Of a stretch of DNA of 38,472 nucleotides, positions 18,801 to 25,270 are shown piece by piece. Positions within the stretch are counted from its first letter, which is position 1, and every line of letters starts with the position of its first letter. The stretch comes from Planctomycetota bacterium (GTDB taxonomy: Bacteria; Planctomycetota; UBA1135; GCA-002686595). Made by a program: the position numbers and the translations under genes. Below the pieces are notes generated by a model, which had not been told where the DNA came from, did not search any database, and saw only the letters and a list, made by a program, of their open reading frames with translations. The stretch lies in the NCBI GenBank assembly GCA_026692705.1, contig JAPLOE010000120.1, forward strand, positions 1 through 38,472, given 5' to 3'.

Positions 18801-20108
18801 CTAGATCGGGACTTTTTCGAACAGTTCGGAGTGCAGCGTGCGGGCAGCTAGCGCGAGTTCGCGCTCGGGCAACACCAGAACCCGCGTGGCCGGCGGGCCG
18901 ACCAGCCACTGGGCGCGCACGTCGACGCCGACGGTGGCGAGCTGGGCCAGCGCGCCCTCGGCGGCGCCGCAGCCGACTGCGGCGACCGTCGCGAGCTCGC
19001 GCTCGAGGCTGACCCGCGGCGCGGCGGCGACCAGCGCGCGCGCGAGGCTCTCGCTCCACGGCACGAGCAGCTCCAGCGTCGCGCCACGCTCTCCCAAATG
19101 CAGCGCCTCGACACCTTCGTGCGCGAGCGCCGCCTCGACCTTCGTGCGCACGGCCTCCGGTTCGTTGCCTTCGAGGCGCGCGAGCATCACGTTGCGACGG
19201 CAGGCGATGCCGACCGCCTCGCGCCCCGCTCCTTCGGCCGCGACCAGCGTCCCCGCATCCTGCGGCTCGCGCACGCACAGCACGCGCCCGGGGATGCGCG
19301 CGCGCGCGAGCGGCTGGATCGACTCCGCGTGCAGCACGCCCGCACCGTGGCGCGTGAGCTCCGCCGCCTCGGCATAGGACATGCGCCGCAGCGTGCGCGC
19401 TTCCGGCACGAGCTTGGGATCGGCGGTCATCACGCCACCGACTTCCTTCCAGAAGCAGACCTCGCCCGCGCCGATGGCCTCGCCGATCAGCGTCGCCGAA
19501 AGGTCCGAGCCGTTGCGACCGAGCGTCGTCAGCCGGCCGTTGGCATCGGCCGCGACGAAACCGGTGATCACCGGAATGCCGTCGAAGCGCGCGAGCGCAT
19601 CGCGCACGCGGACCGCGCTCTGCGAGAGCACCTTCGCGCGCCCGTGGTTCGAATCCGACTGCAGCCCGAGGTCGTAGGCGTCGATCGGCACGGCCTTGAG
19701 GCCGATCGAGTTGAGGTACGACGCGACGATGCGTGCGCTGGCGCGTTCGCCGAAGCTCAGCACGTGGTCGCGCTCGAGCCCGGTCAGGTGGCGGTGCGCG
19801 CGGATCGCGCCCAGCACGGTCGCGAGCTCGGCGAAGTGGCGGTTGAGCATCTCCGGGTCGAGCTCGAGCTGCGCCAGCAGGCTGCGATGGCGCACGCGCA
19901 CCGGTCCGAGCTCGTCGCGCCCCTCGGCGGCGGCTTGGGCGACCTTGTCGAGCGCTGACGTGACGCCTTCGACCGCGCTCACCACCGCCACGGGACGCTC
20001 GTGGACCCGCGCCGCGAGGATTGCACCGACACGGCGCACCGCGGGGCCATCGGTCAGGGAGGCTCCGCCGAACTTGTGGACGGGACGCGGGGACGGATCG
20101 GGGGGCAT
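18801..20108 (-). CDS. lysC: aspartate kinase
   Basis: A 435-residue aspartate kinase, the first step from aspartate to lysine, threonine and methionine. The N-terminal phosphate-binding text is HKFGGASL (residues 11-18); the substrate region is LSFGERASARIVASYLN; GRNGSDLSATLIGEAIGA and GGVMTADPKLVPEAR form the nucleotide-binding core. Two ACT-like segments at the C-terminus (about 300-435) provide feedback control; which amino acid inhibits cannot be read. ATG 20108 places the kinase signature at the normal distance. It is divergent from an isopropylmalate-synthase-like gene, so the two amino-acid genes share an 80-base control region. Confidence 0.9.
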   Translation of the reverse strand: MPPDPSPRPVHKFGGASLTDGPAVRRVGAILAARVHERPVAVVSAVEGVTSALDKVAQAAAEGRDELGPVRVRHRSLLAQLELDPEMLNRHFAELATVLGAIRAHRHLTGLERDHVLSFGERASARIVASYLNSIGLKAVPIDAYDLGLQSDSNHGRAKVLSQSAVRVRDALARFDGIPVITGFVAADANGRLTTLGRNGSDLSATLIGEAIGAGEVCFWKEVGGVMTADPKLVPEARTLRRMSYAEAAELTRHGAGVLHAESIQPLARARIPGRVLCVREPQDAGTLVAAEGAGREAVGIACRRNVMLARLEGNEPEAVRTKVEAALAHEGVEALHLGERGATLELLVPWSESLARALVAAAPRVSLERELATVAAVGCGAAEGALAQLATVGVDVRAQWLVGPPATRVLVLPERELALAARTLHSELFEKVPI

Positions 20109-20148
20109 CTTCGGGGGAGCCGGCGGGCCAGATCCGCGGCGCGGGGCC

Positions 20149-20154
20149 TATGAT
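20149..20154 (+). promoter_or_regulatory. TATGAT -10-like element of the isopropylmalate-synthase-like gene
   Basis: TATGAT matches the sigma-70 -10 consensus at five of six bases and lies 34 bases before ATG 20189. It overlaps an in-frame ATG at 20150, which argues against that upstream start. Confidence 0.45.
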
Positions 20155-20188
20155 AAGGCGCTTCTCGACGCGCAACGAACTCCAGACC

Positions 20189-21412
20189 ATGACCTCCATC
20201 GACCGCGACAGCCTGATCTACGACTGGAACACCACCGGCGAGGCCCCCAAGAAGCCCGCGGGAGCGATCCAGTTCGACGACGAGACCCTGCGCGACGGCC
20301 TGCAGAGCCCGTCCGCGCGCGACCCCGAGCTCGCCGACAAGATCGCGCTCGTGCACCTGATGGACCAGCTCGGGCTGCACACCGCCAATGTCGGCCTGCC
20401 CGGCGCCGGCGCGCGCGCGCGCGAGCACATCACCGCGCTCGTGCGCGAGATGGCGGGCCTCAAGATCAAGGCCAACGTCGCCTGCCGCACCGTCATCACG
20501 GATATCGCGCCCGTGGTCGACGTCGTGCAGGCCACCGGCCAGCCCGTCGAGGTCTGCGCCTTCATCGGCTCGTCGCCGATCCGCCAGTACGCGGAGAACT
20601 GGGAGATGGGCACGATGCTCAAGCTCTCGAAGGACGCCGTCGAATTCGCCGTGAAAAACGGCCTCGACTGCATGTTCGTGACCGAGGACACGACGCGTGC
20701 GCACCCCGACGACGTCCGCGCGCTCTACGCGACCGCGATCGAGGCCGGCGCCAAGCGCGTGTGCGTCTGCGACACGTGTGGCCACGCGACGCCGGTCGGC
20801 ACCGCCAAGCTCATTCGGCACGTGAAGAGCATCGTCGACGCGACCAATCCGAAGGTCGGCATCGACTGGCACGGCCACCGCGACCGCGGGCTCGGCCTCG
20901 CCAACGCGCTCGCGGCCCTCGAGGCCGGAGCGACGCGTGTGCACGCGACGGCGCTGGGTGTCGGCGAGCGCTCGGGCAACGCCGAGATGGACCTCCTGCT
21001 CGTCAACCTGCGCCTGCTCGGCTGGATCGACAACGACCTGTCGGTCCTCGGCGACTACGTGCGCCTCGCCCACAAGGCGATCGGCGTTCCGCTGCCCTCG
21101 AACTACGCAGTTTTTGGCTCCGACGCCTTCGAGACCGGCACTGGCGTCCACGCGGCCGCCGTCATCAAGGCCTTCAAGAAGGGCGACCCCTGGCTCGCCA
21201 ACCGCGTCTACTCGGGCGTGCCCGCCGACATGGTCGGCCTCGAGCAGGTCATCAAGGTCGGCCCGATGTCGGGCAAGTCCAACGTGATCTGGTTCCTCGA
21301 GAAGCACGGCGTCCAGCCGACCGACAAGGCCGTCGACGCCGTCCTGCAGCTCGCCAAGACCACCCCGCGCCTGCTCGAGACCTCCGAGATCCTCGCCGCC
21401 GCGCGCGGCTGA
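20189..21412 (+). CDS. 2-isopropylmalate synthase-like enzyme (HMGL family)
   Basis: A 407-residue TIM-barrel acyl-CoA:oxoacid condensing enzyme. The signature DDETLRDGLQSP (about 29-40) supplies the metal-binding Asp and catalytic Arg. HGHRDRGLGLAN (about 228-239) gives the His-x-His metal ligands. GVGERSGNAEMDLLLVNL and TGTGVHAAAVIKA (second-domain His) complete the family set. There is no C-terminal leucine-sensing domain, so it is shorter than LeuA and closer in length to homocitrate or short IPMS-like enzymes. The exact oxoacid is uncertain. Start ATG 20189 lies downstream of a promoter-like TATGAT. Confidence 0.8.
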   Translation: MTSIDRDSLIYDWNTTGEAPKKPAGAIQFDDETLRDGLQSPSARDPELADKIALVHLMDQLGLHTANVGLPGAGARAREHITALVREMAGLKIKANVACRTVITDIAPVVDVVQATGQPVEVCAFIGSSPIRQYAENWEMGTMLKLSKDAVEFAVKNGLDCMFVTEDTTRAHPDDVRALYATAIEAGAKRVCVCDTCGHATPVGTAKLIRHVKSIVDATNPKVGIDWHGHRDRGLGLANALAALEAGATRVHATALGVGERSGNAEMDLLLVNLRLLGWIDNDLSVLGDYVRLAHKAIGVPLPSNYAVFGSDAFETGTGVHAAAVIKAFKKGDPWLANRVYSGVPADMVGLEQVIKVGPMSGKSNVIWFLEKHGVQPTDKAVDAVLQLAKTTPRLLETSEILAAARG

Positions 21413-21455
21413 CGGTGCGCGATCGGTGACCCGGTCGGCCGGGCACACGAGGCGT

Positions 21456-21995
21456 TCATTTCTCGAGGACCGGAGCTGCCGGCTGCGTTGCGCAGCCGCA
21501 GGAGCCCTCCGCGTGAACCCAGCCCTGCGCGCGCATGTCGTTCACGTGCCACAGCGTCACGACGAAGACCAAGACCACCGACAGCGCCGCCAGCAACCAG
21601 GCCGAGCGGTAATGGCGGGTTCGAGAGTCCCGCAGGGCGAGCAGGGTGACCGCGTGCGCCTTCTCGTCCGCGAGTTCGTCCGTCGACTCCCAACGGATCC
21701 AGTTCACGGAGAGGCAGAAGCCGCTCGAGACCAGCGAGAGCAGGAAGGCCGCGTCGAGCAGCATGTGCTGGCCGCCCTTGGCTGAACCCTCCATCCAGAT
21801 CGCGAGCGCCGCCAGCGCGATTCCGTTGAACGTCAGGAGCGCTGAAGCCTTGGCGTCGAGGATCCCGAGCGACTGGTAGAGGAAGTTGAACTGCGCGGGG
21901 TAGCCGGCTGCGACCTGCGTGCGCTGCAATTCGCCGAGGTGTCGCAAGCGATCGTCATCGCTGCGGTGAATGCCGTGGAAGAAGGGACCGGTCAT
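21456..21995 (-). CDS. small membrane protein, DUF5706/Pycsar-TM-like
   Basis: A 179-residue protein with a soluble N-terminus, then three hydrophobic helices at about 52-70, 80-100 and 130-150, and a short cysteine-containing tail. The segment LGILDAKASALLTFNGIALA, where an Asp-x-Lys-Ala leads into the first helix, resembles the membrane module (DUF5706) of Pycsar effectors that open membranes on cyclic-nucleotide binding. The loop WIRWESTDELADEKAHAV and the third helix fit this order. No cyclase or nucleotide-binding partner lies nearby, so it may be only a relative, or an orphan. Base use is like its neighbours. It lies beside a decayed transporter, a sign of a fluid region. Confidence 0.5.
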   Translation of the reverse strand: MTGPFFHGIHRSDDDRLRHLGELQRTQVAAGYPAQFNFLYQSLGILDAKASALLTFNGIALAALAIWMEGSAKGGQHMLLDAAFLLSLVSSGFCLSVNWIRWESTDELADEKAHAVTLLALRDSRTRHYRSAWLLAALSVVLVFVVTLWHVNDMRAQGWVHAEGSCGCATQPAAPVLEK

Positions 21996-22275
21996 GGGTG
22001 CGAGCCTCGGATCGGGGTTGGGATCAGGTCCCGTGATTCTTGCGGCAGCGCCGGGAGAAAGCGCCCGTTCTCGCCGGTTTCAGGCGCAGTGGCGCTTCCC
22101 GCGCGCGGAGCACGCACGAGCTCCCTTTTGACCGGCCCCGACGGCGCGCGTGGCCTCGACATCACGACGCGTCTGCGCGAGCGCCAGGATTCGCCGAGCC
22201 TGATGCTGGGCAGGCCGCTCGACGGCCCCGGCGCGCGCTTCGAGGCAAGCTGGAGATACTCCTGAGTCCGGGAAG
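21996..22275. other. noncoding or decayed region upstream of the membrane protein
   Basis: Some 280 bases with no convincing intact gene. One frame ends in the text GARFEASWRYS at 22265 and may be the tail of a lost gene, but I cannot match it. The promoter of the reverse membrane-protein gene should lie at its left end. The whole run 21996-22661 separates two intact genes by 666 bases, the largest such gap in the window. Confidence 0.4.
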
Positions 22276-22546
22276 GTGGCAGCGACCGCCGCGCTGATGA
22301 CGCCGATCGCGCCGCAGCTCTCGAAGAGCCATGGAAGTGAGCGAGCGCCCGTTCCTCGTCGCGATCCTGTTCTCGGCCTCGTTCGCGTTGATGACGCCGA
22401 TGGGCTACCCGACCAACTCGATGATCCACGTGCCGGGTGGCTACCGTTTCACCGACTACGTGAAGGTCGGTACGCCGCTGAACGTGCTCACCTGGAGCGT
22501 GTCGCTGGTCGTGATTCCGCTCTACTTCCCGTTCGCGACGACCTAG
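22276..22546 (+). pseudogene. 3' remnant of an SLC13/DASS-type permease
   Basis: Only the last two helices of a citrate/dicarboxylate/sulfate-type permease remain. The first part, AATAALMTPIAPQLSKSHG (from 22276), is in one frame. The rest, SERPFLVAILFSASFALMTP then MGYPTNSMIHVPGGYRFTDY and VGTPLNVLTWSVSLVVIPLY (from 22331), is in the next. The family order is helix, then GVSxRPFL, then TPIGYxTNxMVYGPGGYRF, so a single-base shift near 22330 joins them. Everything before about 22276, most of a 450-600 residue protein, is gone. The stop is at 22544-22546. It is a dead fragment, not a small gene; the promoter is absent. Confidence 0.8.
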
Positions 22547-22607
22547 TCGGAAACGCCGCGTGAATGCCGGGGAAAAGCGCGCGTAGGGGCGCGGCCAAAC
22601 CTGCGCC

Positions 22608-22625
22608 GCCGGAACTCCTTCCGGC
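22608..22625 (+). terminator. hairpin upstream of lemA
   Basis: GCCGGAA and TTCCGGC pair perfectly around CTCC. It lies between the permease remnant and the lemA promoter element and may insulate lemA from read-through. No T-run follows. Confidence 0.35.
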
Positions 22626-22641
22626 CGGTGCGGGGTTGTCC

Positions 22642-22647
22642 TATAGA
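22642..22647 (+). promoter_or_regulatory. TATAGA -10-like element of lemA
   Basis: TATAGA lies 14 bases before ATG 22662. TTCCGG, 17 bases upstream of it, is a poor but correctly spaced -35. Confidence 0.4.
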
Positions 22648-22661
22648 GTGCACCCAACGCC

Positions 22662-23315
22662 ATGAAGCAACTCAACCACGCTCTCCCTCCCTCGAACCGT
22701 CGCGGCGCCATCGGCAAGGGTTGCCTGATTGGCCTCGGGATCGTCGGCGCACTCGTGCTGGTGACCGTGATGCTGCTGTGGAGCGGCTACAACTCGCTGG
22801 TCGGCACGCAGGAGGACTCGCGCCAGAAGTGGGCGCAGGTCGAGAACCAGTACAAGCGGCGCTTCGAGCTCGTGCCGAACCTGGTCGAGACCGTGAAGGG
22901 CGCGGCGAACTTCGAGCAGCAGACGATCACGCAGGTGACCGAGGCGCGTGCGTCGGTCGGGCGCGTGCAGCTGCCGGCGGACCTGCCGACGGACCAGGCG
23001 CAGCTCGACGCGTACATCAAGGCGCAGGCGCAGCTGGGTGGCGCGCTCTCGCGGCTGATGGTCGTGGCCGAGCAGTACCCGCAGCTCAAGGCGACCGAGA
23101 ACTTCCGCACGCTGCAGGACCAGCTCGAAGGCACCGAAAATCGCATCACGGTCGCGCGCGAGGACTACACCAAGGCCGTCGCGACCTACAACAAGACCGT
23201 GCGCTCGTTCCCCAAGAACGTGCTGGCCGGCATGTTCCGCTTCGAGACGCTGCCGCAGTTCACGGTGCCCGCGGAAGAACAGGTGGTGCCGAAGGTCGAC
23301 TTCGGCACGAAGTGA
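22662..23315 (+). CDS. lemA: LemA family protein
   Basis: A 217-residue membrane-anchored helical protein. A short basic N-terminus precedes one transmembrane helix (about 19-40). LemA landmarks follow: YNSLVGTQEDSRQKWAQVEN, YKRRFELVPNLVETVKGAAN, TEARASVG, LSRLMVVAEQYPQLKATENF and YNKTVRSFPKNVLAG. The cellular role of LemA is not settled; it nearly always sits next to TPM-domain proteins, as here (the next gene starts 8 bases on). It is intact and of normal size. Confidence 0.92.
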   Translation: MKQLNHALPPSNRRGAIGKGCLIGLGIVGALVLVTVMLLWSGYNSLVGTQEDSRQKWAQVENQYKRRFELVPNLVETVKGAANFEQQTITQVTEARASVGRVQLPADLPTDQAQLDAYIKAQAQLGGALSRLMVVAEQYPQLKATENFRTLQDQLEGTENRITVAREDYTKAVATYNKTVRSFPKNVLAGMFRFETLPQFTVPAEEQVVPKVDFGTK

Positions 23316-23322
23316 GCGCGCG

Positions 23323-24093
23323 GTGAGCGCCCTCCTCGCGCGCTGGCTCTGCCTCGCCGCGCTGCTCCTCGGTTCGTTCGGTTCCTTCGCGCGTGCGCAG
23401 GAAAGCGAGCTGCCGCGCAATGACGGCTGGGTGACCGACACCGCCGGTGTCCTGAGCCCGACCGAAGAACGCAAGCTCGAGAGCCTCCTCGAAAGCCTGC
23501 GTCGCAACACGACGAACGAGATCGCGGTCGTGGTGCTGCCCGACCTCGGCGGGCAGCCGATCGAGCGCGTCGCGCTCGAGCTCGGCCGGCGCTGGAAGGT
23601 CGGCGCGAAGGACAAGAACAACGGCGTCGTGCTGTGCGTCGCGATCGCGGAGCGCAAGCTGCGCATCGAGGTCGGCTCGGGCCTCGAAGGTGACCTGACC
23701 GACGCGGAGGCCGGACGCATCATCCGCGAGGAGATCGCGCCGAGTTTCCGCGCGGGCAAGCTCTACGAAGGCCTGTTCAACGGCATCGCCGCGATCCACA
23801 CGCGCATCTCCGACCAGCCGCTGCCGGCGGAAGTCGCGCAGGCCCAGCGCCAGCGCAAGAGCGGGGACCCTGTCCGCGCAATCCTCGGGCTCGTCGGCGC
23901 GCTGTTCCTGTTGTTCATCCTGCTCGGCGGCATGGGTCGAGGAAGGGGCGGCGTCGGTTCGGCGTTGCCGTGGATCCTGATGGCGAGCGGCCACCGTCGC
24001 GGCGGAGGTTTCGGCGGCGGAGGTGGCGGTGGCTTCGGCGGGTTTGGTGGTGGCGGCGGATTCAGCGGCGGCGGCGCCTCGGGAGGCTGGTGA
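23323..24093 (+). CDS. TPM-domain protein, YgcG-like
   Basis: A 256-residue protein: signal peptide (1-25), TPM domain (about 33-165) and a C-terminal transmembrane helix (about 188-205) with a Gly-rich tail of about 35 residues (GGGGGGGFGGFGGGGGF-type). The TPM core has WVTDTAGVLSPTEERKLESL, EIAVVVLP, NNGVVLCVAIAERKLRIEVG and SGLEGDLTDAEAGRIIREEI. TPM domains have been linked to phosphatase activity and photosystem repair in plants; in bacteria the role is unclear. It starts at GTG 23323. Its stop overlaps the next start (TGATG), giving a tight lemA-TPM-TPM operon. Confidence 0.88.
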   Translation: MSALLARWLCLAALLLGSFGSFARAQESELPRNDGWVTDTAGVLSPTEERKLESLLESLRRNTTNEIAVVVLPDLGGQPIERVALELGRRWKVGAKDKNNGVVLCVAIAERKLRIEVGSGLEGDLTDAEAGRIIREEIAPSFRAGKLYEGLFNGIAAIHTRISDQPLPAEVAQAQRQRKSGDPVRAILGLVGALFLLFILLGGMGRGRGGVGSALPWILMASGHRRGGGFGGGGGGGFGGFGGGGGFSGGGASGGW

Positions 24094-24878
24094 TGCTCAC
24101 GATCCTGCAACCGGCGAACGACTGGGTCGCGGCGCACGCGAACGAAGGTTCGTGGCTCGCGCGTGGGCTCGAGCTCGCGCCCTGGCTCGGTTTGGCCTTG
24201 CCCGCGCTGCTCGTCGTGCGCGCGCTCGTGCAACACCGGCGCTACCGAGCGGTCAACGTGCTCACGCCCGCCGACCTCGATGCGCTGCACGAGGCGGTGC
24301 GCGCGGCGGAACGCCGCACCGTCGGCGAGATCGTGCCCGTGGTCGTCGAACGTTCCGACTCCCATCCGCAGGCCGCGCTCGCGGCGGCGCTGGTGTTCGC
24401 GTTCGCGGTGCCGATGCTCGGCCTCGGGCTGCTGCCGTGGGGCGAGCCGCAGTGGATCGTGCTCGCGCAGCTCGCGGGTGCACTCGCTGGCTGGCTGCTC
24501 GCGCGCGCGTTGCCGGGTTTCGCGCGGCTCTTCGTGAGCGAGGCGCGCGCGACACACGTGGCGAACGAACAGGCCCTGCAGGAATTCACAGGCCTCGGCT
24601 TGCACCGCACGGCGGCCGAGAGTGGCGTGCTGGTGTTCGTCAGCCTGTTCGAACGGCGCGTGATCGTGCTCGGCGACCGCGGCATCGACGCGAAGGTTGG
24701 CGCGGAGCACTGGAAGAAAGTCGACGAGGCCGTGCTGGCCGGAGTTCGTGCGGGATCGCTGCGTGGCGGGCTCGTCGAAGGCATCCGGCTCGCGGGCGGG
24801 GTGCTCGCCGAGCACTTCCCCTCCCCCGACGGCGGCCGCAACGAACTTCCCGACCGCGTCGTCGTGCGCGCGAGCTGA
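24093..24878 (+). CDS. second TPM-like membrane protein
   Basis: A 261-residue protein, third gene of the lemA operon. A first helix (about 26-45) is followed by LTPADLDALHEAVRAAERRT with VGEIVPVVVERSDSHPQA, a TPM-type start. Two more helices (about 97-140) interrupt the domain before the second half (LFVSLFERRVIVLGDRGIDA, KKVDEAVLAGVRAG, GLVEGIRLAGGVL). The split by a helical hairpin is known in the TPM group that pairs with LemA. A GTG at 24090 next to ATG 24093 would add one residue. Confidence 0.85.
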   Translation: MLTILQPANDWVAAHANEGSWLARGLELAPWLGLALPALLVVRALVQHRRYRAVNVLTPADLDALHEAVRAAERRTVGEIVPVVVERSDSHPQAALAAALVFAFAVPMLGLGLLPWGEPQWIVLAQLAGALAGWLLARALPGFARLFVSEARATHVANEQALQEFTGLGLHRTAAESGVLVFVSLFERRVIVLGDRGIDAKVGAEHWKKVDEAVLAGVRAGSLRGGLVEGIRLAGGVLAEHFPSPDGGRNELPDRVVVRAS

Positions 24879-24913: not shown

Positions 24914-25270
24914 GTGGAACAGCAGCCCGATTACGCCGTCGTCGCCCAGGGAGACATGCACCTCCTGCGGGAAGTGCAGACCGTGCTCAAGCGCAGTGGC
25001 ATCGACGCACGCATGATGTCGCCGCCGGGTGGCTGCGGCTCCGGCGGCGGGTGAAGCTCGACCCTTTGGCTCGCGGTCGCGAGCCACGAAGGTCCGACGG
25101 CGGCGAAGCTGGTGTTCGACCACTGGGGCCGCGAGCTCGACCCTGAATCGCTCCAGCGCGCGCTGGGTGCGATCGATCTCGACGCGGCCGAAGGTGGCTG
25201 CCCGGCTTGCGGAGCGCGTTTCCCGACGACGGCGAAGCGCTGCCCGGAGTGTGGGCTGCGCTTCGGTTGA
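24914..25270 (+). CDS. candidate selenoprotein with C-terminal zinc ribbon (TGA at 25052-25054 read as Sec)
   Basis: If TGA 25052-25054 is read through, the frame encodes 118 residues with selenocysteine at position 47. The N-terminal part (1-38) is YAVVAQGDMHLLREVQTVLK then RSGIDARMMSPPGG, a beta-alpha-beta start like DUF2007 signalling or metal-binding domains. Then comes the motif Cys41-Gly-Ser-Gly-Gly-Gly-Sec47-Ser-Ser. The downstream half (48-118) continues in the same frame: TLWLAVASHEGPTAAKLVFD closes the fold, and CPAC-x10-CPEC (96-113) is a zinc ribbon. Codon choice is the same on both sides of the TGA. A SECIS-like hairpin starts 13 bases after it. The Cys-x5-Sec pair suggests redox or metal chemistry. 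I do not recognise the family. Alternatives are a true stop giving a 46-residue peptide, or a sequencing error of a Cys TGC/TGT codon. The selA-D genes are not in this window. Confidence 0.7.
25058..25097 (+). promoter_or_regulatory. SECIS-like hairpin downstream of the in-frame TGA
   Basis: The apical stem GGCTCGC (25068-25074) / GCGAGCC (25079-25085) is perfect, with loop GGTC (25075-25078) and one extra T-A pair (25067/25086). Below it, GACC-C-TT (60-66) pairs with AAGGTC (89-94) with one bulged base, and TC/GA extends it outward. The loop lies about 21 bases after the TGA. The bacterial SECIS of E. coli fdhF has a GGUC-containing apical loop at 18-20 bases, read by SelB. Confidence 0.65.

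Follow-up and report, generated by a model that had tools for sequence, protein, structure and literature searches.

The closest described relative of the protein considered here is "hypothetical protein DG", which was first predicted by Xiao & Zhang in 2025 (deep-Sep, PMC12013277) and was found in Desulfosediminicola, where it was reported to be without conserved domains (PMC12013277). DG is listed with the motif GUxG in a 2026 review (PMC13188914), and NCBIfam holds a model named "zinc ribbon-containing (seleno)protein DG" (NF049953). A second family of importance to our analyses is DUF3343 (Se_S_carrier, PF11823), whose members are putative intracellular carriers of selenium or sulfur with a single highly conserved Cys (PMC5322559).

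The planctomycete DNA that was analyzed, a stretch of 38,472 nucleotides referred to here as the window, carries a gene that likely encodes a divergent relative of DG (Table 1). Its reading frame opens with a GTG at 24914, runs for 46 codons to an in-frame TGA, and then continues for 71 further codons to a terminal TGA. The preliminary description of this DNA had set out the same frame, and its coordinates and translation proved exact to the base. Gene finders would end the gene at the first TGA and annotate a fragment of 46 residues, where the reading presented here gives a complete selenoprotein.

Table 1. Features of the predicted selenoprotein gene, in window coordinates.
Feature	Position	Strand	Basis
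Selenoprotein gene, 118 residues, Sec47, planctomycete DG branch (predicted)	24914..25270	+	Translation, homologues, NF049953 match
Sec codon TGA (codon 47; probable)	25052..25054	+	TGA/TGC/TGG/Cys distribution in homologues
SECIS apical stem-loop, 7 bp, loop GGTC at 25075-25078	25068..25085	+	Fold, synonymous constraint, pair changes
Extended helix with bulges, enclosing the SECIS core	25058..25097	+	Minimum-energy fold, this gene alone
N-terminal domain, residues 7-72, predicted ferredoxin-like	24932..25129	+	AlphaFold2, Foldseek, profile comparison
C-terminal zinc ribbon CPAC...CPEC, residues 96-113	25199..25252	+	Invariant Cys, sub-cut-off Pfam matches
True stop TGA, no GGTC hairpin described 3' of it	25268..25270	+	Ends of homologues

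Bacterial selenoproteins are usually identified by pairs of Sec and Cys homologues. A search of 101 genomes with the read-through protein showed it to be present in 68, and nearly all the best matches had exactly one in-frame TGA. Within the home order, the gene was found in 105 of 154 genomes; 96 of these 105 had exactly one in-frame TGA, one (G102) had TGC (Cys) and eight had TGG (Trp). Beyond the order, in the same phylum, one TGA was found in G313 (family f71) and in the f23 genomes, and Cys occupied the site in two f15 genomes and in the four f49 genomes inspected. The UGA was therefore conserved at one site and paired with Cys in homologues, and both residues that the preliminary description had suggested seeking at position 47 (Cys or Sec) were present. 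A distant homologue in G360 (L167) was an outlier that has SRGLYLLAV here, without Sec or Cys, which suggests that the Sec site can be lost.

These comparisons bear directly on whether the TGA at codon 47 is simply a true stop, in which case the product would have 46 residues and what follows would be either a remnant in decay or an ORF of its own. In formal terms TGA is a stop codon, and both this gene and many of its neighbors end in TGA. However, in-frame conservation extends over the downstream half in members from across the phylum, with zinc-ribbon Cys that were invariant in a 68-row alignment, and the reading frames of the Cys and Trp homologues continue past codon 47. The ends of the homologues (TGA, TAA or TAG) coincided with the terminal stop of the window gene. 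The Pfam zinc-ribbon matches for the C-terminal part were below cut-off. A pseudogene was refuted by the Cys homologues and the comparative data, and we consider that there is next to no chance of a true stop at codon 47.

The sequence that follows codon 47 can form a hairpin that starts 13 nt after the TGA, with its loop starting 20 nt after it. The stem (GGCTCGC/GCGAGCC, 25068-25074/25079-25085) is extended from 7 to 8 bp by an optional T25067-A25086 pair, and the loop, GGTC, is that of the E. coli fdhF SECIS (GGUC). The stem, loop and spacing agreed with those described earlier, as did the longer bulged helix, whose pairs were the same in the minimum-energy fold of 25052-25100. This 49-nt fold (-21.6 kcal/mol, paired over 25058-25097) was mildly unusual, with a z of -1.83. 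For the core at 25061-25092, the energy was -17.8 kcal/mol and the z was -3.46, with 0 of 200 shuffles equally stable.

Comparison of the hairpin among relatives was more informative than its stability in a single gene. In 86 TGA genes (the codon counts leave out one TGA gene, L143), the four codons that make up most of the hairpin were CTC in 84/86, GCG in 84/84 (of Ala codons), GTC in 86/86 and GCG in 83/85, versus a use of 0.38-0.45 for the same codons elsewhere in those genes. The binomial p was <=1e-30 for each hairpin codon, although these values are not strict probabilities, as the sequences are related. The GGTC loop was present in 88 of 88 Sec genes (the 86 and two short paralogues), among which pair -1/14 was seen as GC, CG, TA and AT, and pair 2/11 as CG and TA. 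Based on this codon constraint and the compensatory pairs, the comparison shows the hairpin to be an RNA element that is conserved for its own sake. The comparative evidence, with one in-frame TGA in nearly all the genes, also ruled out chance. The short paralogues L089 (G037:C19) and L090 (G056:C105), which have no zinc ribbon, have both the TGA and the hairpin, and their stem shows a compensatory change (GCTCGTG-GT-CACGAGC).

In the Cys homologues the situation was different. The stem was broken in the five that could be placed, and their mean folding energy was -7.3 kcal/mol versus -16.1 kcal/mol for the TGA genes. The same was seen on comparing two close relatives, as G102 has TGC at the site and a broken stem and G082 has TGA and an intact one.

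The home genome (G000) was found to encode selA (488.8 bits), a tRNA-Sec with anticodon TCA, and a selD that itself has an in-frame TGA (DCAGUAGK). No selB over cut-off was found in the home assembly, which is 89% complete and in 348 contigs, whereas selB was over cut-off in 6/6 congeners and in 58/61 genomes searched. Since the assembly is incomplete and all six congeners have selB, its absence is probably an assembly gap. The preliminary description had proposed a search for selA, selB, selC and selD, of which only selB was missing, and had named the lack of selB and selC as evidence against selenocysteine; formally this applies to selB in the home assembly, but tRNA-Sec is present. Candidates for selB in the home genome were rejected, the best being EF-Tu and a match in C242 being CysN-like and beside a CysD-like gene. 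The selD gene (L092 1900-2964, G000:C167, TGA at 1951) lies on the strand opposite to the neighboring selA, and its hairpin differs from that of the zinc-ribbon selenoprotein gene.

The TGG found at the site in eight relatives would fit a reading of the UGA as Trp by a near-cognate Trp-tRNA, with the hairpin acting as a stimulator of readthrough. However, the sense residue outside one family is Cys, not Trp, the layout of the hairpin is that of a bacterial SECIS, and selA was present in every TGA genome tested beyond the order. In four f49 genomes (99-100% completeness), whose genes have no TGA, there was no match to selA. Trp readthrough seems to us very hard to credit. Together, the Sec/Cys pairs across the phylum, the tracking of Sec by the hairpin, and the selA, selD and tRNA-Sec of the genome indicate that the UGA at codon 47 is almost certainly decoded as Sec via a bacterial SECIS, as had been proposed from the window sequence; we place the probability of this at about 0.97.

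If the process resembles that of E. coli, SelA would charge Sec-tRNA-Sec(UCA) with selenophosphate from SelD, and SelB with Sec-tRNA-Sec(UCA) would bind the GGUC loop and insert Sec. The comparative data strongly support read-through of the UGA to give the 118-residue selenoprotein. Termination always competes at a Sec UGA (PMC3834832), which would be in keeping with a selenium-dependent switch that yields a functional 46-residue half when selenium is low and the full protein when there is enough. However, the 46-residue half would be without half of the predicted domain, and the Cys and Trp homologues would be unable to switch in this way, so we regard such a switch as improbable.

The eight TGG (Trp) genes all belong to family f6 (L051 in G097, L052 in G069, L122 in G106, L128 in G105, L129 in G103, L135 in G118, L141 in G104 and L178 in G121). 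In these genes the spacing was unchanged, and the six apical pairs and the GGTC loop were intact in 8/8. The four codons of the hairpin were invariant in the eight genes versus 3 of 19 other four-fold-degenerate columns (Fisher p 0.004, by our own count of only those columns in which the eight genes do not differ in amino acid). Both selA and a Sec-containing selD are present in each of the eight genomes, and tRNA-Sec had the anticodon TCA in the two checked. About three changes on the tree are needed to account for the eight genes, and a single origin is possible.

In the work of Xu et al. 2013, a UGG before a SECIS was shown to be decoded through wobble by E. coli SelB and tRNA-Sec(UCA), producing a mixture of Sec and Trp without truncation (PMC3834832). 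Based on that result and the retention of both hairpin and machinery, the TGG genes are candidates for natural recoding of UGG. The plain alternative is that Sec has been lost repeatedly and recently and the hairpin has not yet decayed, with the LAVA peptide being retained for the sake of the protein. A natural dual decoding of the f6 UGG, as both Trp and Sec and controlled by the SECIS, would be an unlikely explanation. If true, these relatives could be a natural case of SECIS-directed UGG decoding, for which the only demonstration so far, to our knowledge, has been in E. coli with an engineered system.

Turning to the possible function of the protein, the AlphaFold2 model (pLDDT 79.6) had a beta-alpha-beta unit, a low-confidence loop at residues 42-45 immediately preceding Sec47, a beta-alpha unit and the C-terminal ribbon. 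Foldseek returned ferredoxin-like folds (PrgK, PII-like SbtB and 2hfv), none of them at E <= 0.001, and when the family profile was searched against PDB sequences, the only matches were at the zinc-ribbon level or due to chance. The assignment of a ferredoxin-like fold is suggestive only. Weak matches to PF11823 were identified in 29 of 68 members (best E 2.7e-5), with scores under its gathering score of 25 bits for both the window protein (11.5) and the best member taken singly (21.1). Profile comparison of the family with true DUF3343 proteins collected from the phylum gave a distant match (probability 84.5, E 6.9e-6 as a single comparison) in which the Sec column was aligned with the conserved Cys of SSDCG. 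As in DUF3343, the Cys or Sec is in a CG motif before the third strand. We speculate that a mobile loop of the N-terminal domain exposes a single selenol at the position of the DUF3343 Cys, that the zinc ribbon has a role in partner binding or structural support, and that the whole protein is a small Se/S-carrier or transfer protein.

A redox function is considered likely for most uncharacterized selenoproteins (PMC13188914), and the protein may instead be a redox or metal-binding enzyme with Sec as a catalytic selenol or a metal ligand, perhaps acting with the zinc ribbon. The CxxxU or CxxU of some members would be consistent with such an enzyme. However, 58 of 86 Sec members had no upstream Cys within eight residues of Sec, which makes a fixed CxxU redox pair unlikely. 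In addition, the predicted fold is not thioredoxin-like and the Sec site matches the DUF3343 Cys. Our best guess, held tentatively, is a protein that carries or transfers Se/S by means of a single selenol, and a redox or metal-binding role is equally open. Because its Sec site matches the Cys of a putative Se/S carrier, the protein, which has had no assigned function, would gain a first one that can be tested.

The neighboring genes support neither of these roles. There were no selenium-metabolism genes among the conserved neighbors of the selenoprotein gene. An HMGL-like gene is upstream of it in the congeners, directly so, and in one other genus; in the window (20051-24875) the two are separated by other genes, including LemA and two TPM-domain genes.

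The preliminary description had not recognized the protein as any described selenoprotein, and this did not hold, as the family is that of "hypothetical protein DG" (PMC12013277) and NF049953. All 68 of the 68 aligned members matched NF049953, and the window protein did so with an E of 5.8e-20 and 71.9 bits (residues 6-118 to model 58-172). Members scored singly reached 42-80 bits and the curated cut-off is 130 bits, based on which we have filed the planctomycete proteins as a divergent branch related to DG rather than as members by NCBI's criterion. The named records of the planctomycete family were all from Planctomycetota or "bacterium" MAGs. Taken jointly, the selenoprotein gene and its assignment to the DG family are, judged from sequence comparison, very probable. 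The family was already known, and what is new is the large planctomycete branch, the distant DUF3343 profile match at the Sec site as a hint of function, and the unexpected UGG variant among the relatives. With these findings the family, known since 2025 from bacteria of the Desulfobacterota type, extends to a planctomycete order in which it nearly always has Sec.

The comparison with known systems can be drawn at three levels. Like the DG proteins of NF049953, the planctomycete proteins have a GUxG-type Sec site, a zinc ribbon and both Sec and Cys members, with homology over residues 6-118; unlike them, they fall below the cut-off, are without some 57 positions at the N-terminal end of the model, and have Sec nearly always within the order and Trp in one family. 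With DUF3343/PF11823, a putative Se/S carrier (PMC5322559), they share a distant profile match over strand-loop-strand-helix in which Sec is aligned with the conserved Cys, although the DUF3343 proteins compared have no zinc ribbon and the family scores below the PF11823 cut-off. Lastly, the hairpin resembles a bacterial SECIS of the E. coli fdhF type (model in PMC13188914) in being a stem-loop within the coding region with a GGUC loop 20 nt from the UGA, and it differs in that its stem sequence is nearly fixed within the planctomycete family and in that it has been kept behind UGG in eight relatives.
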